IMG/VR virus record: IMGVR_UViG_3300021792_000016
Location: 1 to 23,860 of that record
Source of the DNA: a virus
Direction: 5' to 3' (one strand)
DNA length: 23,860 nt
The notes under the pieces were generated by a model. It was not told the DNA's origin and did no database searches. It saw only the letters and a list, made by a program, of their open reading frames with translations. The translations under genes and the position numbers were made by a program. Shown piece by piece: positions 1,150 through 20,422 of this stretch. Numbering within the stretch: position 1 is the stretch's first letter; each line of letters begins with the position of its first letter.

Positions 1150-1506
1150 ATGTCTGAACCTACAGCCCCGGAACAGCGCCCGGCCCACCTGTTCCGGCCC
1201 GGTCAGTCCGGCAACCCATCCGGTCGGCCGAAGGGCTCCCGAAACAAGCTCGGCGAGGCCTTCCTCACTGCGCTGTCCGAGGACTTCGACACCCACGGCA
1301 CCAACGCGATCGAGCGCTGCCGCAAGGCGGATCCGGTCGCCTACGTGCGGGTCGTGGCGTCCCTGCTGCCGAAGGAGCTGAAGGTTGATCGCGGCCCTGT
1401 CGAGGATCTGAGCGACGATGAGCTTGCTCACCTTATCGACGTCGTCCGGGCAGAGATCAGCCCTGCTGGCGAAGCTGGAGAAGGAGAGGGCCCGGCGGGC
1501 GGCTGA
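1150..1506 (+). CDS. DUF5681 protein, probable small terminase subunit
   Basis: The 118-residue product has the DUF5681 signature at residues 15-32 (FRPGQSGNPSGRPKGSRN), a short basic Gly/Pro motif found in phage proteins encoded just before the large terminase. By position it is the candidate small terminase subunit, which would recognise phage DNA and load the motor. That role is inferred from context because the family's function is not firmly known. The middle is helical, and the acidic, Gly-rich tail overlaps the start of the large terminase gene by 89 bases in another frame. No strong Shine-Dalgarno is visible before the ATG. Confidence 0.65.
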   Translation: MSEPTAPEQRPAHLFRPGQSGNPSGRPKGSRNKLGEAFLTALSEDFDTHGTNAIERCRKADPVAYVRVVASLLPKELKVDRGPVEDLSDDELAHLIDVVRAEISPAGEAGEGEGPAGG

Positions 1507-2116
1507 GAACAAGCTCCGCGATTACCGGCCCTACCCGAAGCAACGGCTCTTCCACAACGCCTCGGCCTCGCACCGCGAGCGCCTGTTCATGGCGGGCAAC
1601 CAGCTCGGCAAGACATTCTCGGGCGCGGCGGAGGCGGCAATCCACCTGACCGGGCGCTATCCCGAATGGTGGCAGGGTCGGCGCTTCGACCGTCCGGTGC
1701 GCGCCTGGGCGGGCTCGGAGACGAACGAGGTCACCCGCGACGGCGTGCAGCGCTACCTCGTCGGGGAGCCGAAGAACGAGCAGGCCTGGGGGACCGGCAT
1801 CGTCCCGAAGGCCTGCCTGAAGGATTGGACCCGGCGCCAGGGCGTGCCGAACGCGCTGGACGGCATCATGGTCGAGCACGTCTCCGGCGGGCTCTCGATG
1901 CTGGGCTTCAAGAGCTACGACCAGGGCCGCACTAAGTGGCAGGGCGAGACGCTCGACTTCGTCTGGCTCGATGAGGAACCGGACCACGACATCTACATGG
2001 AAGCCCTGACCCGCACGAACGCCACGGGCGGCTTCATCTATCTCACCTTCACGCCCCTCAAGGGCATGTCGGCCGTCGTGGACAGCTATATCCAGGAGTG
2101 CGGGCTCGGTGAGTAA
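1418..2116 (+). CDS. Terminase large subunit, ATPase half
   Basis: This 232-residue ORF carries the motor domain of a large terminase: Walker A AGNQLGKT at residues 59-66, Walker B ending in the acidic pair within VWLDEEP (182-188), and the coupling motif LTFTPLKG (209-216). The N-terminal stretch (residues 15-45, ending DYRPYPKQR) is also typical of the family. The frame then stops at TAA 2114-2116, where relatives continue into the nuclease domain. The nuclease half continues in the +1 frame from 2109. The combined length of about 480 residues fits a complete P22-type large terminase (about 500). The start lies inside the DUF5681 gene, and no later in-frame ATG precedes the conserved region. 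Confidence 0.88.
   Translation: MSLLTLSTSSGQRSALLAKLEKERARRAAENKLRDYRPYPKQRLFHNASASHRERLFMAGNQLGKTFSGAAEAAIHLTGRYPEWWQGRRFDRPVRAWAGSETNEVTRDGVQRYLVGEPKNEQAWGTGIVPKACLKDWTRRQGVPNALDGIMVEHVSGGLSMLGFKSYDQGRTKWQGETLDFVWLDEEPDHDIYMEALTRTNATGGFIYLTFTPLKGMSAVVDSYIQECGLGE
2094..2098 (+). promoter_or_regulatory. Shine-Dalgarno for the terminase nuclease ORF
   Basis: AGGAG lies 10 bases before GTG 2109, inside the last codons of the ATPase ORF. It is the best support for separate, coupled translation of the second half rather than simple gene breakage. Confidence 0.5.
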
Positions 2117-2852
2117 GCACGTCACCCGCATGACGATCCACGACGCCGAGCACTACACCCCGGAGGAGCGTCAGGCGATCATCGACGCCTATCCCGCGCA
2201 CGAGCGCGAGGTGCGGACGAAAGGCATCCCGTCGCTCGGCTCGGGCCGCATCTTCCCGATCGTGGAGGAGGAGATCCTCTGCGACGCGATCCCGATCCCG
2301 GCGCACTGGCCCCAGATCGTCGGTGTCGACTTCGGCTGGGATCACCCCTTCGCGGCGGTGCGCTCGGCCTGGGACCGGGATTCGGACATCTGGTACGTCA
2401 CCGGGGTCTATCGCCAGAAGGAGGCCACCCCGGTCATCCACGCCGCGGCGATCAAGCCCTGGGGCGAGTGGATCCCGGTGGCGTGGCCGCACGATGGCCT
2501 GCAGCACGACAAGGGGTCGGGCGAGGACCTCGCCTCGCAGTACCGGGCCCAGGGCCTCAACATGATGCACGAGCGCGCCACCCACGAGGATGGCGGCAAC
2601 GGCGTCGAGGCCGGCGTGCTCGACATGCTCGCCCGGATGCAGACCGGCCGGTGGAAGGTGTTTCGGCACCTGACCGACTGGCTGGAGGAGTTCCGGCTCT
2701 ACCACCGCAAGGACGGGAAGATCGTGAAGGAGCGCGACGATGCGCTCTCCGCCTCCCGCTACGCCTACATGATGCGGCGCTTCGCTGAGACGGAGCCCGC
2801 GCCCCTCAAGATCAGCACCGGCCGACGCGGCGGTGGCTGGATGGGTACCTGA
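2109..2852 (+). CDS. Terminase large subunit, nuclease half
   Basis: This 247-residue ORF continues the large terminase. It has the RNase H-like nuclease layout: first acidic residue in VGVDFGWDHP (Asp74), a second in WPHDG (Asp129) and a late acidic pair in KERDDALSASRYA (210-211). In intact relatives the opening segment (HVTRMTIHDAEHYTPEER) directly follows the ATPase motif, so the ATPase and nuclease are normally one chain. GTG 2109 overlaps the upstream stop (GTGAGTAA) and has AGGAG 10 bases before it. It cuts DNA concatemers during headful or site-specific packaging. Whether it acts as a separate chain or is joined by a frameshift cannot be told from sequence. Confidence 0.85.
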   Translation: MSKHVTRMTIHDAEHYTPEERQAIIDAYPAHEREVRTKGIPSLGSGRIFPIVEEEILCDAIPIPAHWPQIVGVDFGWDHPFAAVRSAWDRDSDIWYVTGVYRQKEATPVIHAAAIKPWGEWIPVAWPHDGLQHDKGSGEDLASQYRAQGLNMMHERATHEDGGNGVEAGVLDMLARMQTGRWKVFRHLTDWLEEFRLYHRKDGKIVKERDDALSASRYAYMMRRFAETEPAPLKISTGRRGGGWMGT

Positions 2853-2854
2853 CC

Positions 2855-3205
2855 ATGACGAACGCTGAATGGCGCGAGGCCTTCATCAGGGCCTGTGAGG
2901 ATGCGGAGCATGCCGAGCCTGTGCACCTGCCGGCGAATACGCCCGTCACGATCGGCTGCACGCGCTTTCGCGCGGTTTACGACTCGGCCACAGACACGAC
3001 TGGCCTCATCACAGAGGACGAGTGGAGGCGTCGGCTGGATAAGGCCCGGGCGCACAGGGCGGCCGCCGTCGCCCGTGAGGTCGGCGTGAGGCTCGAAGAG
3101 GGCCAACACGCCCGGGTGATCGCCGGTCGAAGCGTCTTTCTGATCGGCTGGGACGACACGGTCGACGACTTCGTGGCGATCCGCGCGGACAAGGCTGACC
3201 GCTGA
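2855..3205 (+). CDS. Hypothetical protein between terminase and portal
   Basis: The product has 116 residues, is soluble and charged, and shows no motif I recognise. ATG 2855 lies two bases after the terminase stop, and the TGA at 3203-3205 overlaps the portal ATG (TGATG), so it is clearly part of the packaging/head operon. The central part (WRRRLDKARAHRAAAVARE) is likely helical, and the end (VIAGRSVFLIGWDDTVDDFVAIRA) looks like beta strands. It could be a head-completion or DNA-binding accessory, but nothing in the sequence decides this. Confidence 0.75.
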   Translation: MTNAEWREAFIRACEDAEHAEPVHLPANTPVTIGCTRFRAVYDSATDTTGLITEDEWRRRLDKARAHRAAAVAREVGVRLEEGQHARVIAGRSVFLIGWDDTVDDFVAIRADKADR

Positions 3206-5538
3206 TGGCTCGCAAGCAACCCCGCCGCGTCGAGCGGCCCGCCTCGCTTCCCCCGGAGGTCGAGGAGAAGCCGGCGCGCCCGGCCGACCCGCAGGCCGAG
3301 GCGAACGCCAAGGTCATCGACGTCGCCATGAAGCGGTGGCTTCGCGCCGATGAGGCTGGCCGGATCAACCGCGAGCTCGCCTACGCAGACCTGGAGTTCC
3401 TCGAGCCCGGCGGCCAATGGGACGTGAGGATCAGGCAGCAGCGCGAGGCCGATGGTCGGCCGTGCCTGGAGTTCGACCACCTCAGCACTACAATTTCGCA
3501 GATCACCGGCGACATCCGGCAGATGCGGCCGGCGATCAAGGCCGTGCCGATCAACGACCGCGGCGATCCCGACACGGCCGAGATGCTGGCGGGCATGATC
3601 CGCTACATCGAGAACCGGTCGGACGCGGCCTCGACCTACTTCGCGGGCGCGGATCAGCAGGTCGCGGCCGGCATCGGCCACTGGAAGGTGATCACCGAAT
3701 ACGGCTCGGACTCCACCTTCGAGCAGGAGATCGCGGTCGCGGCGATCCCGGACGGCATCGGCGTGCGCTGGGATCCCGACGCGGTGAAGCCGACCCGCGA
3801 GGACGCGAAGTTCTGCTTCGTGCCCGTCGACATGAGCCGCGAGGTCTACGAGGAGACCTATCCCGACAAGCCTGCGGCCGAGGTCGGTGACAGCGAGCTC
3901 TCCAAGGCCGGGCTGGCGGAATGGTCGACGCACGACGTGGTGCGGGTCGCGGAATACTACACGAAGACGCCGGTCCAGAAGACGCTCGCGCTGATGCCGG
4001 ACGGCGAGATCATCGACCTGACCGACGATGATCCTGATGCCCTGGAGGCCGTCGAGCAGGCGAAGGCTGCTGGGCAACCCGTGCGCGTCGAAAAGCGCCA
4101 GGGGCACCGGGTCGAGCGCTACCTGATCTCGGCGACCGACGTGCTCGACGGGCCGGATCTGATCCCGGGGCCGATGATCCCGGTGGTGCCGCTCCTCGGC
4201 GTCGAGCAGGTGATCGGCAAGCGGCGCACGCTGCGCGGTGTCGTGCGAAAGGCGCGGGACGCGCAGCTCGCCTACAACTACTCCCGTTCGACCCAGACCG
4301 AGGTCGTGGCCCTCCAGCCCAAGGCGCCGTTCACCGGCACCGAGAAGATGTTCAAGGGCTACGAGGACGTCTGGCAGACGGCCAACACCGTCAACCACCC
4401 GTTCCTGCCCTACAACCCGGATCCGACTGCGCCTGGTGCTCGGCCGGAGCGGACACAGCCGCCGGTCGCCTCGGCCGGCCTCGCCGAACTCACCCGGGAG
4501 GCGGCCGACGACATCAAGGCGGTGACCGGCATCTACGAGGCCTCCCTCGGAGCGCCCTCGAACGAGTCCTCGGGCAAGGCGATCAAGGCGCGCCAGCAGC
4601 AGGGCGACGTCGGGTCGTTCGTCTACATCTCGAACTTCACCCGGGCCGTGCGCCACACCGGCCGCATCATCCTCGGCATGGTGCCGCACATCTACGACAC
4701 GGCGCGCACGCTCCGGATCGTGGGCGAGGACGGCAAGGAGGACGTCGTCCAGATCAACCAGCCGCAGGGTCTGGAGGAGGACGGCGTCGCCGAGCGGATC
4801 GAGCATGACGTGACGGTCGGCGCCTACGACATCGGCTTCGAGATGGGGCCGAGCTACACCTCGAAGCGCGAGGCGGCCGCGGACGGGATTACCGCGTTCA
4901 TCCAGTCCGCGCCGCAGTCCGCGCCGATCGTGCTCGACCTCCTCGCCAAGGCGCAGGACTGGCCGATGGCGGACAAGATCGCCAAGCGCATCCGGACGAT
5001 GCTGCCGCCCCAGATCCAGGCCGAGGAGGCGCAGGAGAGCGGCGAGCCCCCGCCGCCGCCTCCGCCGCCCTCACCGGAGCAGCAAGCCGCCGCGGCGGCC
5101 GAGCAGCAGAAGCAGCAGCTCGAGGCTGGGCGTCAGCAGATCGATCTGCAGAAGCTCGACGTCGAGCGTCAGCGGATCCAGGCCGAGATGGCGAAGGTCC
5201 AGGGCGAGATCCAGCGCGCCGCGGCCGAGGCTTCGGCCCATGTGGCCGGCCCCGCGCAACCGGGCCAGCCGGACACGCGGCTGGAGGACATCGCCACCGC
5301 CGTGCAGCACCTGTCCCAGATCGTCGCGACGATCCTCGAGGAGCTGCCCGCGCCCGCCGCGCCGGATGGGCCGCCGAGCCCGGAAAACGGGCCGCCAGCG
5401 CCCGAACCTTCACCCCCGGGCCCGATGCCCGCCGATCTCAGCCAGCCGCCTCAGGGCGGCTTTTCTTTTGACCCGAGCGCTCTGGGGCAACCCGGCGCCG
5501 AGATGATGAGCCAGCCCGCGGGAGGGCAACCCCAGTAA
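3205..5538 (+). CDS. Portal protein, P22 type
   Basis: A 777-residue protein matching the P22-like portal family in its N-terminal two thirds (for example WLRADEAGRINRELAYADLEFL and FDHLSTTISQITGDIRQMRP, then the ESSGKAIKARQQQGD segment near residues 452-466). P22 portal has about 725 residues. The portal is the dodecameric ring at one capsid vertex through which the terminase packs DNA and to which the tail attaches. The C-terminal part is unusual: a run of prolines from about residue 614, a Gln/Ala/Glu-rich coiled coil (about 626-680), then a Pro-rich tail to the end. An intrinsic-terminator-like hairpin lies inside the last 100 bases of the gene. The start is set by the TGATG overlap. Confidence 0.9.
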   Translation: MARKQPRRVERPASLPPEVEEKPARPADPQAEANAKVIDVAMKRWLRADEAGRINRELAYADLEFLEPGGQWDVRIRQQREADGRPCLEFDHLSTTISQITGDIRQMRPAIKAVPINDRGDPDTAEMLAGMIRYIENRSDAASTYFAGADQQVAAGIGHWKVITEYGSDSTFEQEIAVAAIPDGIGVRWDPDAVKPTREDAKFCFVPVDMSREVYEETYPDKPAAEVGDSELSKAGLAEWSTHDVVRVAEYYTKTPVQKTLALMPDGEIIDLTDDDPDALEAVEQAKAAGQPVRVEKRQGHRVERYLISATDVLDGPDLIPGPMIPVVPLLGVEQVIGKRRTLRGVVRKARDAQLAYNYSRSTQTEVVALQPKAPFTGTEKMFKGYEDVWQTANTVNHPFLPYNPDPTAPGARPERTQPPVASAGLAELTREAADDIKAVTGIYEASLGAPSNESSGKAIKARQQQGDVGSFVYISNFTRAVRHTGRIILGMVPHIYDTARTLRIVGEDGKEDVVQINQPQGLEEDGVAERIEHDVTVGAYDIGFEMGPSYTSKREAAADGITAFIQSAPQSAPIVLDLLAKAQDWPMADKIAKRIRTMLPPQIQAEEAQESGEPPPPPPPPSPEQQAAAAAEQQKQQLEAGRQQIDLQKLDVERQRIQAEMAKVQGEIQRAAAEASAHVAGPAQPGQPDTRLEDIATAVQHLSQIVATILEELPAPAAPDGPPSPENGPPAPEPSPPGPMPADLSQPPQGGFSFDPSALGQPGAEMMSQPAGGQPQ
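5444..5469 (+). terminator. Terminator-like hairpin inside the portal 3' end
   Basis: AGCCGCC (5444-5450), loop TCAG, GGCGGCT (5455-5461), then a TTTCTTTT tract. It has the form of a rho-independent terminator but lies about 70 bases before the portal stop codon. Confidence 0.5.
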
Positions 5539-5916: not shown

Positions 5917-6795
5917 ATGGACAGACAGATGGACGAGGACCTGATCGTGCTGGGCGCGCAGGCGGAGACGCCGGCGGCAGGTGCAGAGGACTCGCGCGCG
6001 GCGGACCAGGAGACCGGCCACGAGGCCGATCCCTTCGGCTTCGCCGCAACGCCAGGGGAAGACGAGGCCGAACCGGCCGCCGAACCGAAGCCCGAGGCCA
6101 AGCCGGCCGAGGGCGACGAAGGCGATCCGGAGAAGCCGCGACGGCGCACCGGCATCCAGCGGATGCAGGACAAGATCAGCCGTCTCGAAGCCGAACTCGC
6201 GAATGCCCGCAGCGCGCCCTCCGGCGCCGGTGAGGACCGCAAGGCGGCCATCGAGAAGGAGATCGGTCCGGCCCCGAAGGAGGCCGATTACGAGGACTAT
6301 GCCGCGTTCGAGGACGCCAAGGCCGAGTACCGTCTCCGGAAGGTGCTCGCCGAGCAGAAGGTCACCGAGCGCGAGGCGTCGGACGCGACCCGCCAGGCCA
6401 CGGCCCGGCGCGAAGCGGTCGAGGCCTTCGAGGATCGCCTCGATGAGGCGCGGGAGAAGCTGCCCGACTTCGACACGGCGCTCGCCGCCGCGAAGGGTCG
6501 GGAGGTCAAGCCGCACATCACCGAGCTCGTCGTCGAGAGCGAGAAGGGTGCGCTCCTCACCTACTTCCTCGCCAAGAACCCGGAGAAGCTCGCCGAGCTG
6601 AACCGGATGAGCCCCGTCCAGGCCGCGAAGGCCGTGGGTGCGCTCGAAGCCCGCCTCACCCTGGCGAAACCGAAGAAGACCCCCTCAGCCCCCGCTCCCG
6701 CGAAGCCCGTCGCCGGCTCGGCTGCGCCCTCGTCTCCCGATGCGGAGATCGAGGCGTACCTGTCGAGCGCCTACGGCAATCGCGGGTCCAAGTAA
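5917..6795 (+). CDS. Scaffolding protein
   Basis: The 292-residue product is acidic, Ala/Glu/Lys-rich and mostly helical, with a disordered, Pro-rich N-terminal region. A coiled coil runs from about 80 to 97 (QRMQDKISRLEAELANAR) and long helices fill the middle. It lies directly upstream of the coat gene, and P22 scaffold (gp8) has a similar size (303) and style. It would direct coat assembly around the portal and then leave the procapsid. The call rests on position and composition rather than a strong motif. ATG 5917 abuts a terminator T-tract with no Shine-Dalgarno. ATG 5932 in the same frame is an alternative start, which would remove five residues. Confidence 0.75.
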   Translation: MDRQMDEDLIVLGAQAETPAAGAEDSRAADQETGHEADPFGFAATPGEDEAEPAAEPKPEAKPAEGDEGDPEKPRRRTGIQRMQDKISRLEAELANARSAPSGAGEDRKAAIEKEIGPAPKEADYEDYAAFEDAKAEYRLRKVLAEQKVTEREASDATRQATARREAVEAFEDRLDEAREKLPDFDTALAAAKGREVKPHITELVVESEKGALLTYFLAKNPEKLAELNRMSPVQAAKAVGALEARLTLAKPKKTPSAPAPAKPVAGSAAPSSPDAEIEAYLSSAYGNRGSK

Positions 6796-6811
6796 CAGGA
6801 CCTGACATCCG

Positions 6812-8071
6812 ATGGCCAATATCTTTCAGACTGCCCAGGTGATCGCCAAGACGGCGGTCCGCGTGCTCGACAACGAACTCGTCGCCGCTTCCAAGGTGTA
6901 CCGCGGCTACGAGGACGAATTCGCCGAGAAGGTGAACGGCTACGAGAAGGGCGCCACCGTCACCATCAAGAAGCCCCCGCAGTTCCAGGTGCGGATGGGC
7001 GACACGGCCTCCAACCAGGACGTCGTCGAGGGCACGACCTCGATCACCGTCAACCGCAAGGCGGGCGTCGATCTCAAGATCTCCTCGACCGACCTGACCC
7101 TCAGCATCGCCCAGCTCGGCGAGCGGGTGATCAAGCCTGCGATGGTGTCGATCGCCAACCAGATCGACCAGGACGTGATGGGCCTCTACTCGTCCGTCCC
7201 GCACTGGGTCGGCACCCCCGGCAACGTGCTGTCGAGCTACCCGGGCTTCCTGCGCGGCACCACCCGCATGAACAACATGTCGGTGCCGCGGGACTCCCGG
7301 TTCTGCATGCTCTCCCCCGACGACGAGTCCGGGCTCGCGGGCGCGCAGACCCAGTTCTACAACGACAAGCTGGTGGCCGAGGCCTACCGCGACGGCGCCG
7401 TCGGGCGCATCGCGCAGGTTGACACCTACATGAGCCAGAACGTGCCGGTGCTCTCCACGGGCTCGCGCACCAACGGCACCGTGAACGGTGCGGGCCAGGC
7501 CGTCACCTACACCCAGGCCCTCGCCAACGGCCTGCAGGTGAAGGATTTCGGCGGCCAGTTCCTGAACGTGTCCGGCCTTGGGGCGGGCGGCACGATCGCG
7601 GCCGGTGAGGTCTTCACCATCGCGGGCGTCTACGCGGTCAACCACGTCACCAAGCAGCCGCTGAACTTCCTGCGGCAGTTCACGGTGACCGCGGCCGCCA
7701 CCGCCGACGGCTCGGGCAACGCCACCCTCGCGATCTCCCCGGCGATCATCGCTCCGGCGGCGCTCCCGGCGGGTGCATTCACCACGGTCTCGGCCGCTCC
7801 GGCCGCCGGCGCCGTCGTGACCTGGATGGGCGCAGCCAGCTCGAACTACACCCAGAACATCATGGCGCATAAGAACGCCTTCGCTCTGGCCTGTGTCCCG
7901 CTGATCAAGCCCCCGGGCGCGGTGAACTGCACCCGCGAGTCCTACAAGGGCCTCTCTGTGCGGCTGATCCCCTACTACGATGGCGTCAACGACGTCTCGC
8001 AGTGGAGGCTTGACGTCCTCTACGGGGTCAAGGCGGTCGATCCGCGCCTCGCGGTTCGCCTCAACGGCTAA
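6812..8071 (+). CDS. Major capsid (coat) protein, P22 type
   Basis: A 419-residue protein matching the P22 coat family (P22 gp5 has 430). The N-terminal start (MANIFQTAQVIAKTAVRVLDNELV), the following VKKPPQF-like segment (TIKKPPQFQVRMGD) and the region ISSTDLTLSIAQLGERVIKPAM are characteristic. It forms the icosahedral shell with an HK97 fold. A Gly/Ala/Thr-rich segment from about 220 to 350 occupies the place of the P22 insertion domain. The C-terminal SYKGLSVRLIPYYDGVNDVSQWRLD is also typical. It is 16 bases after the scaffold stop, with AGGA upstream, and is followed by a terminator, consistent with a highly expressed last gene of the block. Confidence 0.93.
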   Translation: MANIFQTAQVIAKTAVRVLDNELVAASKVYRGYEDEFAEKVNGYEKGATVTIKKPPQFQVRMGDTASNQDVVEGTTSITVNRKAGVDLKISSTDLTLSIAQLGERVIKPAMVSIANQIDQDVMGLYSSVPHWVGTPGNVLSSYPGFLRGTTRMNNMSVPRDSRFCMLSPDDESGLAGAQTQFYNDKLVAEAYRDGAVGRIAQVDTYMSQNVPVLSTGSRTNGTVNGAGQAVTYTQALANGLQVKDFGGQFLNVSGLGAGGTIAAGEVFTIAGVYAVNHVTKQPLNFLRQFTVTAAATADGSGNATLAISPAIIAPAALPAGAFTTVSAAPAAGAVVTWMGAASSNYTQNIMAHKNAFALACVPLIKPPGAVNCTRESYKGLSVRLIPYYDGVNDVSQWRLDVLYGVKAVDPRLAVRLNG

Positions 8072-8147: not shown

Positions 8148-8798
8148 TCATTCACTGGTCCGGCCGTTGTATCTGGCTCGCGAGGTGGCCGCCTCTTCGG
8201 GGTTCCAGCCCCGGTTGAGGCGATCGAGTACCGTCGTGCGTGTGACGCCCGCCCTTCTGGCCCATTCGGCGACCACCCTGTGCTCGCCGCGCACGGCTAT
8301 AACCCTGTTGGTCCTCTTGTTCGCGGCCTGCTGATTGTCTGTCGCCCATCGGCAGTTTCCGGGCTCGTAGGGACCGTCATTATCCTCGCGGTCGATCTCC
8401 AGACCTGGAGAGTATGACCCGGCCATATCGGCCACGAACGCCTCGATGTGGTGCCAACGGTCGCAGACCGTGATCCCTCGGGCCCCGTAGTTCGGCCAGT
8501 CCTTGTCATCGGTGTCGTAGCAGCGGTTCATCATGTTCCGCCAACGTCGATAGAGCGGGTGGTCGGACAGTCCATGGCGGCTAGTCTTCTCAGTCCGCAG
8601 GCACCCACACGACAGGGACTTCCCCTGCTGGATATTTTTCAGCTTAACGAGCTTTGGCGGCGAGCCGCACGAGCAACGCGCAACCGCATAAATCTCCCGC
8701 GAACCGGAACGCTTGCCAAAAGCCTCCAGAGTCCATCGCCCCAAGATTTGTCCAACATGACAGGTCTTCGGGTCTGCCGGTGAGATTTCGAAGGTCAT
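8148..8798 (-). CDS. HNH-like endonuclease, probable free-standing mobile gene
   Basis: A 216-residue protein from ATG 8798, with AAGG upstream on that strand; a TTG at 8834 would add 12 residues. Two Cys pairs (42/44 and 64/66) suggest a zinc site. The centre (RHGLSDHPLYRRWRNMMNRCY...YGARGITVCDRW) and residues 134-153 (EIDREDNDGPYEPGNCRWAT) match a widespread phage family related to HNH nucleases and homing endonucleases. The C-terminal EWARRAGVTRTTVLDRLNRGW looks like a DNA-binding helix-turn-helix. It is opposite in strand to every head gene and visibly less GC-rich. It probably cuts phage DNA lacking the insertion. The usual first His of the HNH motif is not evident, so activity is unproven. 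Confidence 0.7.
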   Translation of the reverse strand: MTFEISPADPKTCHVGQILGRWTLEAFGKRSGSREIYAVARCSCGSPPKLVKLKNIQQGKSLSCGCLRTEKTSRHGLSDHPLYRRWRNMMNRCYDTDDKDWPNYGARGITVCDRWHHIEAFVADMAGSYSPGLEIDREDNDGPYEPGNCRWATDNQQAANKRTNRVIAVRGEHRVVAEWARRAGVTRTTVLDRLNRGWNPEEAATSRARYNGRTSE

Positions 8799-8836
8799 GT
8801 CAGACCTTACCCTGAATACTGACGGCGGTGTCAAAA

Positions 8837-17158: not shown

Positions 17159-20100
17159 ATGGCTGGTCTCTTCGACGATGTCCCCGACGCCGCTCCGGCT
17201 GCCACGCCGAATGCTGCCAAAGGACAGCCGAGCCTTTTCGACGATGTGCCCGATGCCAAGCCCTCGGCGCTCGCACGAGCTGGCGAGGTCGCAGCGGACG
17301 TCGCGAATTCGGCGGGTGCCGGGCTCATCCGTGGCGCGGCTGGCCTCGTGGACCTCCCGCAGACCCTATACGGCCTCGCAGATCAGGGAGTGGGAGTGGT
17401 CGCCCGCGGGCTGGGGCGCGCCGTCGGCCTGACCCCGAATTCGGATCTCGGGGCGGATACCCGTCCGCACGGGCTCATCCCGTCCCCGGCCGATCTGCCG
17501 AAGCCAGGCGGAACGGCCATTCACGCGCTCGAAGCCGTGACGGAGCCTCTCTACAAGCCGAAGACTACGGCCGGCGAGTACGCCGGTACCATCGCGGAAT
17601 TCGTCCCCGGGGCCGGTGCCACGAAGGCTCTGGAGGCTGGCGCGTTGGCAGGGGCGAAGACGCTTGCGAAGACCGTCGCCGCGCCCGCCATCGCATCGGA
17701 GACGGCGGGACAGGTCACGAAGGGGACCGATCTGGAGCCGTGGGCCCGTGGGGTGGCCGGCGTCGGTGCGGGGCTCGGCGTAGCTGCAGCCGCCCGCCCT
17801 GGCGTGGCCGAGCGCGCCTTTGAACATTCCGCGGGCAAGATCTCGCCGGAGGAGGTTGGGCAGGTCCAATCCCTCGTGTCCGACGCCAAGGCCCGGGGGA
17901 TCGACCTCACATGGCCTGAGGCTCTTCAGCAGGTGGTCGGGCCGCGTCGCATGGGTGACCTGCTGCGCGTCGTTGAAGGACAGGGGAAGCTCCAGGATTT
18001 CTTCGCTGCCCGCCCGGGCCAGATCCGCGCCGCGGGTGAGGCCGGGCTCGATACGATCGCGCCTGCAGCCTCACCCGGGCAGGTCGGAGATGCGGCGCAA
18101 GCGGCTGCTCGCAATGCTGTCGCTGCGACGCCCGAGGGACAGGCTGTGATCCGGGCCTCGCAGGCCGCAGGCCCCCGGGTCACTGCGGACCAGGCCGGGC
18201 AAGTGATCCAGCGCGAGATGCGTGCGGTTCAGGACGCACGAGAGGCGCGTCGCACAGAACAGGCCGGGCGCGATTATGAGGCTGCGCGCGACGCCCCTGA
18301 GCGGATCGGTGTTGATCGGACCGTCACCGTCGAGCGTCCGGGCGAGCCAGTCCTTCAGACCCTTGATGTCGTGCCCTCGCGCGGTCCCGAATTTCAGGCG
18401 CCGCCGGATGGTCCGGCCACCATCGGCTCGCTTGCTCCGAAGCGGCCTGACGCTCCGCAGAATGCCGGCTCGCGCGGTCCGTCGCTCGCCCGGTTCATCT
18501 CCGAGAACGGCGGCATCGGGCTCGAGCGTGGGGATGTGAAGGCCGCTGGCCTCGACCGTGTCCGCCAGCCAGGTGTCGCGAACCTCGTGCGCCAGGACGG
18601 CAAAAGCATCGACGACTTCTGGCGCGAGCGTCTGATTGAGGAGGGCTACCTCCCGCCCGACCGCGATGGCGGTATGGCCCGCAACATCCACGACGAGCTG
18701 ATTTCGCGTTTGGAGGAGGAGGCAAAGGGCCGAAAGACGTATCCCTACGACTACCTCGGCCGCGATGACCTCAACGGCTTCGGGGCGATGAAGGACGAGT
18801 TTGCCGACTCTGCCGGCCGCGCGATGACGGATGTGCGCGAGGCTCTGAAGTCGGTCGACGTCGATCCCCACACGGTCCACAAGGATATCCTCGACCGCGC
18901 TGCCGCCGCCCTCATGCGCGGCGATGAGACTGATCCGCTGAAGGCCTACGAGCGCACCGTGATGGCCTCACGCGAGCCGGCCGCTCAACCGTCTTCGCGC
19001 CTCATCCCGACCACGGTGACGGAGGAGATCTCCGCGCCGCGCTTCGGGCAGGCGAACCCCCAGCCGGCGATTGATGCGCTCGACCGACAGGTCCGCACCG
19101 CGAAGGGTGACGTTCGGGCGAGCCTCGAAGGCATCCGCCGCGATCTCTACGAGCATGGCGTGGATCCGACGTCGGGCGTCCGGGAGACTGATCTGTCGGT
19201 CGAAGGCCTGCTGCATGCCCGTGAACGCTTGGATCAGCACATCGAAGCGGCTCGGGATGTCGGTGACCGGACGAAGATGCGCGACCTCCAGATCGTCCGC
19301 GCCTCGCTTGACCGGCAGTTGAAGGCCGTTCCGGAAGTAGCGACGGCGGACGCGAACTTCGTGGCCAACAGCCGTCCGCTCGACGCGTTCGCGGGCGACG
19401 CTCCCCTCGGCCGGGTGACGGCTCGGAACGAGCAGACCGGGAGGATGTCGACGCCCGCCGAACAGGTCCCCTCGAACCTGCAGGGCGCCACGGCCGCACG
19501 TGAATTTCTGCGTGACGCGACCCCGGAAGCCCGCCGCGCCTTTCAGGACCGGGAGGTCACGCGGATCCTCGACGAGGTCTCTTCCGGTGAGGGCGCCAGC
19601 GCCGACCGGATCCGGGCCGCGATGAGACGGAACGAGGACCTCCTCTCGCAACTGCCGGAGGCCCGCGGTCGGCTTCAGCGTCTGGCTAACGCCTACCAGG
19701 GTCGCGAGGCCGTCGAGCGCTCACCGTTGGGCCGGATCGCGAACCGACCGGATGTGAAGAACGCGATGGACGCTCTCTTCCCGGCGAAGCTTGTCGAGGG
19801 GTCTTCGCGGGAGGTTGGCGACGCGGTCGCCGGCATGGTCCGCAGCAACGCGGTCGCCGCGCGCCAACTCGTGCGTACCTACCTCGCGACCGAGTTCGCA
19901 GCCTCGAAGCCCGCCAGTCAGACAGGCGGAGCGAAGTTCGCCGCCCGGCTGACGGATAACCCGCTGCGGTCGGAGAACGTGTCGGCGGCGATCCGCGCGC
20001 TTCCCAACGGCGAAGCGCTGGATCGAGGCTTCTCTCGGCTCATCGAAATCATGCAGGCCACCGGCCAGCGGCAGGGCATCGGCTCGCGGACGAGCTTCAA

Positions 20101-20422
20101 CAATGAGGCTCTAGCTGAGCTTCGGACGGGTGGCCCCGCGGCAGAGGCTGGACAGGCGCTCGCGACGGGTGGCCTGAAGCTTCCCGGGCGTATCGTTGAT
20201 GCGCTTCAGACCTGGCGCTTGGGCAAGAACCTCGACCGGCTGGCCGAGCTGATGACGACGGCCGAGGGCGGTCGGCGCCTCGCGCAACTCGCAGATGCCA
20301 AGACCAGCGCTTCGACTATCGCGCTCCTCAACACGATCACGAGGAGCGTCGCTCACGGGGCGGAACGGGCTCGGGACGCGGCCGACGACCCGCTTCGGCT
20401 GACCGTGCGTCCCTCGCAGTAG
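17159..20422 (+). CDS. Large internal virion / ejection protein
   Basis: With 1087 residues this is the longest gene here. The N-terminus has LFDDVPDA twice (residues 4-11 and 26-33). It then has Gly/Ala-rich helices (about 45-75 and 130-215, for example GARGVAGVGAGLGVAAAARP-like sequence) that could enter membranes, and long charged helices. A middle segment (about 440-535, from PSLARFISENGGIGLERGDVKAAG) resembles a domain seen in large phage polyvalent and virion proteins. The C-terminal half is helical. Position and style match the largest podoviral ejection protein (P22 gp16 or T7 gp16 role), which helps move DNA across the inner membrane. No catalytic motif is visible. The last 312 bases overlap an antisense ORF. 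Confidence 0.7.
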   Translation: MAGLFDDVPDAAPAATPNAAKGQPSLFDDVPDAKPSALARAGEVAADVANSAGAGLIRGAAGLVDLPQTLYGLADQGVGVVARGLGRAVGLTPNSDLGADTRPHGLIPSPADLPKPGGTAIHALEAVTEPLYKPKTTAGEYAGTIAEFVPGAGATKALEAGALAGAKTLAKTVAAPAIASETAGQVTKGTDLEPWARGVAGVGAGLGVAAAARPGVAERAFEHSAGKISPEEVGQVQSLVSDAKARGIDLTWPEALQQVVGPRRMGDLLRVVEGQGKLQDFFAARPGQIRAAGEAGLDTIAPAASPGQVGDAAQAAARNAVAATPEGQAVIRASQAAGPRVTADQAGQVIQREMRAVQDAREARRTEQAGRDYEAARDAPERIGVDRTVTVERPGEPVLQTLDVVPSRGPEFQAPPDGPATIGSLAPKRPDAPQNAGSRGPSLARFISENGGIGLERGDVKAAGLDRVRQPGVANLVRQDGKSIDDFWRERLIEEGYLPPDRDGGMARNIHDELISRLEEEAKGRKTYPYDYLGRDDLNGFGAMKDEFADSAGRAMTDVREALKSVDVDPHTVHKDILDRAAAALMRGDETDPLKAYERTVMASREPAAQPSSRLIPTTVTEEISAPRFGQANPQPAIDALDRQVRTAKGDVRASLEGIRRDLYEHGVDPTSGVRETDLSVEGLLHARERLDQHIEAARDVGDRTKMRDLQIVRASLDRQLKAVPEVATADANFVANSRPLDAFAGDAPLGRVTARNEQTGRMSTPAEQVPSNLQGATAAREFLRDATPEARRAFQDREVTRILDEVSSGEGASADRIRAAMRRNEDLLSQLPEARGRLQRLANAYQGREAVERSPLGRIANRPDVKNAMDALFPAKLVEGSSREVGDAVAGMVRSNAVAARQLVRTYLATEFAASKPASQTGGAKFAARLTDNPLRSENVSAAIRALPNGEALDRGFSRLIEIMQATGQRQGIGSRTSFNNEALAELRTGGPAAEAGQALATGGLKLPGRIVDALQTWRLGKNLDRLAELMTTAEGGRRLAQLADAKTSASTIALLNTITRSVAHGAERARDAADDPLRLTVRPSQ

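Follow-up and report, generated by a model that had tools for sequence, protein, structure and literature searches.

Large terminase (TerL) pumps DNA into the virus shell; this enzyme is normally one protein and serves as a standard marker gene. In the stretch of viral DNA analysed here (the window, a virus record of 23,860 bases that is an incomplete contig), the domains of this enzyme are instead spread over two open reading frames (ORFs), which raises the question of whether the gene is broken, is rejoined during expression or encodes a working enzyme in two parts. The first ORF, TerL-N, ends at a TAA stop codon at positions 2114–2116. The second, TerL-C, begins with a GTG at position 2109 in the +1 frame relative to TerL-N, such that the end of one ORF and the start of the other share the bases GTGAGTAA. 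Our recheck of the ORFs and sequence agrees with this layout as it was originally predicted from the letters alone. The AGGAG noted ahead of the GTG was also found, with 9 bases separating the two. The features of the locus are listed here.

1150–1506, plus strand: upstream ORF of 118 amino acids, DUF5681 (PF18932, E = 8.6e-10); its 3′ end overlaps the TerL-N start
1418–2116, plus strand: TerL-N, the ATPase core (ASCE subdomain), 232 amino acids; Terminase_6N positions 1–152, E = 1.5e-24
1595–1615, plus strand: Walker A GNQLGKT, TerL-N residues 60–66; N61, G64 and K65 invariant in 52 N halves
1970–1978, plus strand: Walker B and catalytic acidic residues DEE; D185, E186 and E187 invariant in 52 N halves
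2045–2056, plus strand: motif III TFTP; T210–P213 invariant in 52 N halves
2095–2099, plus strand: AGGAG, Shine-Dalgarno-like, for TerL-C; identical in relatives L002 and L159
2109–2116, plus strand: GTGAGTAA, TerL-C start codon overlapping the TerL-N stop codon; identical in L002 and L159
2109–2852, plus strand: TerL-C, the last ATPase strand, lid, linker and RNase H-like nuclease, 247 amino acids; Terminase_6N positions 162–213, Terminase_6C E = 2e-27, 4dkw E = 2.7e-58
2115–2138, plus strand: KHVTRMTI, counterpart of the last ATPase strand in one-chain relatives (strand 233–238 of the one-chain model)
2160–2219, plus strand: lid helices (helices 18–27 and 30–37 of the TerL-C model)
2235–2243, plus strand: interdomain linker, the true ATPase/nuclease boundary (TerL-C residues 43–45, pLDDT <50; same place in the one-chain model)
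3205–5538, plus strand: P22-like portal protein downstream of TerL (P22_portal, E = 8.2e-178)

Both proteins match PHROG terminase families, and the structure matched by TerL-C, 4dkw, is the solved nuclease domain of P22 gp2. The neighbouring genes form a P22-like head module of portal, scaffold (Phage-scaffold) and coat (P22_CoatProtein), and the upstream DUF5681 ORF possibly occupies the position of a small terminase. The motor and nuclease motifs, which had been called intact, are near-invariant across split relatives, including the nuclease acidic residues D74, D129 and D210/D211 of TerL-C. The locus therefore shares its domains (Terminase_6N and Terminase_6C), motifs and P22-like head genes with the headful terminases P22 gp2 and Sf6 gp2, and TerL-C is about 51% identical to P22 gp2. 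However, P22 and Sf6 carry both domains on one polypeptide, whereas in the window a break separates the ATPase core from the lid, leaving two conserved ORFs in different frames. The window TerL is thus a variant rather than an ordinary member of the P22/Sf6 type.

Searches of viral and genome contigs returned 310 distinct relatives, 297 of which were long enough for a tree; these are the best matches to chosen queries rather than a census. TerL is one chain in 232 of the 297 tree rows, split in 58 (the window counted) and recently broken in 7. The original prediction held that relatives have one chain and proposed a search for conservation of the split. The search found the same cut in all 58 split rows, and the closest relatives of the window are among them; only more distant ones have an uninterrupted gene. 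This is not the pattern named at the outset as refuting a working split, in which every close relative would have an unbroken gene. Most relatives and the best-matching isolated phages belong to this latter group. No split TerL was seen among the best isolate matches inspected (four Rhizobium phages, Achromobacter CF418P1 and others), in all of which the gene is in frame and encodes one chain.

The cut falls just ahead of (M/V/L)(S/T)(R/K)HVTRMTIDDAEH or its equivalent, and the first codon of TerL-C is conserved as a start codon (ATG, GTG or TTG) in split relatives. Thirty-six split rows have a four-base overlap (ATGA, GTGA or TTGA), 3 have the 8-base overlap of the window, 4 have some other spacing, and 15 have 112–1,806 bases between the halves. 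The shared cut exceeds chance, as the four-base stop/start overlap occurs at the same codon position in 36 of 58 rows and split rows cluster on the tree (none of 500 label shuffles was as low as the observed split pattern).

The junction and frames of the window recur in two independent relatives, L002, a viral contig, and L159, a prophage of Methylobacterium sp. R2-1, both at approximately 85% DNA identity. The R2-1 stretch is co-linear with the window through TerL, portal and coat and further downstream, and a search of the genus Methylobacterium recovered only this known prophage (1 of 111 genomes). A sister clade (L022 and L178) has ATGA at the same place. In an alignment of the two clades made by eye, the window clade lacks one upstream base; the sister-clade stop is thereby out of frame, and reading stops at the TAA within GTGAGTAA.

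The argument that the second ORF has its own ribosome site stands in part. The window clade has a Shine-Dalgarno-like site, but in several split relatives the site is weak or absent. This variability led us to reject conservation of the site as a common driver of the split, and it indicates that coupling of stop and start is more general than the ribosome site.

Purifying selection acts on both halves. Comparison of the window with L159 and L002 gives dS values of 0.49–0.63, dN of about 0.08 and dN/dS of 0.13–0.16 in each half, so both parts are conserved as coding sequences. Between L002 and L159 there are 19 substitutions across the two halves, all of which are synonymous, and other split pairs have dN/dS values of 0.02–0.17.

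The position of the cut within the fold differs from that first proposed, which was the ATPase/nuclease junction. Pfam family Terminase_6N is itself divided, with profile positions 1–152 in TerL-N and 162–213 in TerL-C. To place the cut, we used an AlphaFold2 model of a one-chain relative (L165, mean pLDDT 86), which Foldseek groups with the P22, D6E, T4 and Sf6 terminases; a search of the PDB with TerL-N alone as the query gave no match, and a profile of one-chain relatives was needed. In the model, the junction corresponds to a loop (residues 228–232) inside the ATPase domain, between a helix following motif III (220–227) and a strand (233–238). Then come the lid helices (248–257 and 260–268), a low-confidence linker (273–275) and the nuclease. 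The cut thus lies about 42 residues ahead of the ATPase/nuclease linker, and TerL-C holds the last ATPase strand together with the lid, linker and nuclease. By profile alignment to D6E, with the residue offset counted by us, the cut is about 40 residues before the D6E linker (230–241) and precedes Y213, M216 and R224, which PMC5727402 names as residues of the lid. A break at a domain boundary, the main argument first given for a working split, was therefore mistaken.

When TerL-C was modelled alone, its lid helices and nuclease formed, but the last ATPase strand (KHVTRMTI) did not, and residues 1–5 had pLDDT values <50. These models suggest that the N-terminal strand of TerL-C completes the TerL-N sheet. 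In D6E, a P-loop arginine touches Y213 of the lid and has been proposed as the link between ATP hydrolysis and lid motion (PMC5727402). Here different polypeptides carry these two elements, and this is what makes the split TerL surprising.

The split is real and conserved, and it is almost certainly functional. The reading that we favour, with a probability of about 85%, is that the window encodes a P22-type large terminase as two translationally coupled proteins that rejoin non-covalently and function in the manner of the one-chain enzyme. A working TerL of two translationally coupled polypeptides was also the outcome favoured at the outset; although the domain-boundary argument has fallen away, this proposal is strongly supported by the conserved split, by purifying selection on both halves and by the usual four-base stop/start overlap. 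The near-invariant motifs, the 15 rows with genes between the halves, the reassortment of halves between lineages and the co-linear R2-1 prophage also speak for it.

In the mechanism that we propose, TerL-N carries the nucleotide-binding ATPase core and TerL-C the last ATPase strand, lid, linker and headful nuclease. The gene layout suggests that the halves are probably coupled by termination and reinitiation, with a ribosome that ends TerL-N restarting at the overlapping TerL-C start and yielding similar amounts of both. Judging by the fold, the chains would rejoin non-covalently, most likely by the TerL-C N-terminal strand adding to the TerL-N sheet, and the lid of TerL-C would close over the ATP site of TerL-N in a complex that may operate like the one-chain motor. 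Because selection keeps both halves intact, they probably reassemble as one working motor. Counted against a two-part motor is that the cut parts the ATP site from the lid, possibly an intolerable change, and so are the single chain of most relatives and of the best-matching isolated phages and the incompleteness of the window contig. The cut would sit in a tolerant loop, and the site, once cut, can accept unrelated genes.

A further-reaching proposal is that the motor is an obligate hetero-oligomer with the lid and nuclease on a separate chain from the ATP-binding core, that these chains part or exchange during the packaging cycle, and that accessory and counter-defence genes dock at the cut site. 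We regard this as unlikely; if true, a covalent link between core and lid would be unnecessary for force transmission.

Considerably less probable is that the halves act apart, with TerL-N as a free ATPase motor and TerL-C as a free nuclease, each recruited separately to the portal. The halves are indeed separate genes and have been reassorted between lineages, but the cut removes the last strand and lid from the ATPase. Given the contact between the P-loop arginine and lid residue Y213 in D6E (PMC5727402), TerL-N alone should be crippled. Moreover, the lid part of TerL-C has near-invariant residues, as does the nuclease part.

The reassortment is evident from trees of each half, from which we conclude that TerL halves have been exchanged between lineages. 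The N halves of L006, L007 and L327 fall near a one-chain group (L039, Comamonas and others), whereas their C halves are of the type found in L008 and L009, and forced agreement of the half trees is rejected in both (AU p = 6.6e-6 and 2.4e-5). Identity between L007 and L008 is about 0.3–0.8 along TerL-N and mostly >=0.9 in TerL-C, a step that places a recombination point near the junction.

A single origin of the split may be read from a 181-row tree, which unites 30 split rows in a clade that includes no one-chain TerL (SH-aLRT 93). Larger trees and those built from either half call for several changes, among them a separate distant group (L229, L316, L331, L347, L380, L383 and L384); one clade for the main split group is not rejected (p = 0.128). 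In one member of the distant group, the C half runs to 508 amino acids, about twice the usual length (L383, 3510–5033). Podoviridae sp. ct2G2228 (MW202785.1; L471), a public virome record, has two coding sequences, 1878–2645 and 2779–3510, that are both annotated ‘large terminase protein’, with the same cut site and a small ATGA-bounded ORF between the halves. Its TerL sequence is distant from that of the window, and the annotation offers no explanation for the two genes. This phage and the distant group point to additional split events or re-fusion.

A ribosome reaching the end of TerL-N could in principle undergo a programmed frameshift (+1 in the window) and produce full-length TerL, with the short form as a by-product, since the two frames overlap and a single frame change would yield a chain resembling that of relatives. 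This is very unlikely. The frame relation varies, being +1 in the window clade and the other frame in ATGA relatives, there is no evident slippery codon pair before the stop (GGT GAG TAA), and the TerL-C start is kept as a start codon. In addition, stop codons and whole genes lie between the halves in 15 other rows. In these rows the halves are necessarily separate polypeptides, so neither frameshifting, splicing nor an intein can be the general joining route.

The genes between the halves are unrelated and vary from phage to phage. Many inserts are a single small ORF with a four-base overlap at either end, one with the TerL-N stop and one with the TerL-C start, and few have content named by Pfam. 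HNH_3 endonuclease genes occur in L109 (1078–1419) and, with NUMOD4, in L037 (3511–4023), and a homing endonuclease may have made or exploited the cut site. An NnrU match was found in L214, and in L152 a 1.8 kb insert holds an Ntox44 match (4049–4768, E = 5e-7) along with three small ORFs without a Pfam match. L197, from Xanthobacteraceae bacterium Astr-EGSB, carries an Acb2/Tad1 hairpin gene (2832–3065, E = 2.1e-19) between its TerL halves. Acb2/Tad1 is a counter-defence sponge family for signalling nucleotides. On L464, a contig of the L207 genome, TerL halves at 899–1591 and 6703–7434 are 5.1 kb apart with cellular-looking genes between; either a true insertion or faulty metagenome assembly may account for this.

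Still harder to credit is an intron or intein that interrupts the gene and is spliced out to leave a single chain. Intron-split terL genes do exist: the coding sequence of Jug phage terL is also in pieces, divided by group I introns, and one chain is restored by mRNA splicing (PMC12363816). Two of the inserts described above encode HNH endonucleases. However, the window and most split relatives have no insert at all, and each half has its own ordinary start and stop codons, with no intein. The inserts that do occur are as short as 112 bases, differ between phages and consist mostly of ORFs that bring overlapping start and stop codons of their own, and no Rfam intron family matched in 19 gap loci.

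Sequencing error or a recent gene-killing frameshift can be excluded. L002 and L159 have the same junction as the window although about 15% of their sites differ from it, selection constrains each half, and the sister clade has its split at an ATGA. The seven broken rows (L026, L076, L081, L183, L219, L391 and L421) do look like such cases, with breaks that lie at differing places and close relatives that are whole. The alternatives left open by the original prediction, namely a +1 frameshift product, a recent one-base change and a sequencing error, are thus excluded or very unlikely.

Other phage enzymes are also encoded by two genes, including a split DNA polymerase with a small ORF of unknown function between its parts in OM43 phages (PMC10580990), and DNA polymerase III and RNA polymerase subunits in jumbo phages (PMC7824862). 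These enzymes serve replication and transcription, not packaging. Although intron-split terL and two-gene phage enzymes are already known, we found no publication in the open-licence literature on a working two-gene TerL without splicing, which appears to be unpublished there.

TerL is treated as a universal single chain, and its mechanism has been argued in terms of how the lid and nuclease move against the ATPase core. With a natural cut between core and lid that selection maintains, the importance of the covalent link becomes directly testable, and a two-part motor is available for mixing its parts and mutating each on its own. In genome annotation, split TerLs may be labelled partial or frameshifted, and accessory genes can be sought at the cut site.

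Two further genes of the window lack a match to the families searched. A 228-amino-acid ORF without a Pfam match (8148–8834, minus strand) lies directly after the coat gene, on the opposite strand to the head genes, and is possibly a free-standing mobile gene. A 1,087-amino-acid protein without a PHROG or Pfam match (17159–20422, plus strand) follows other virion genes and is possibly an ejection protein.
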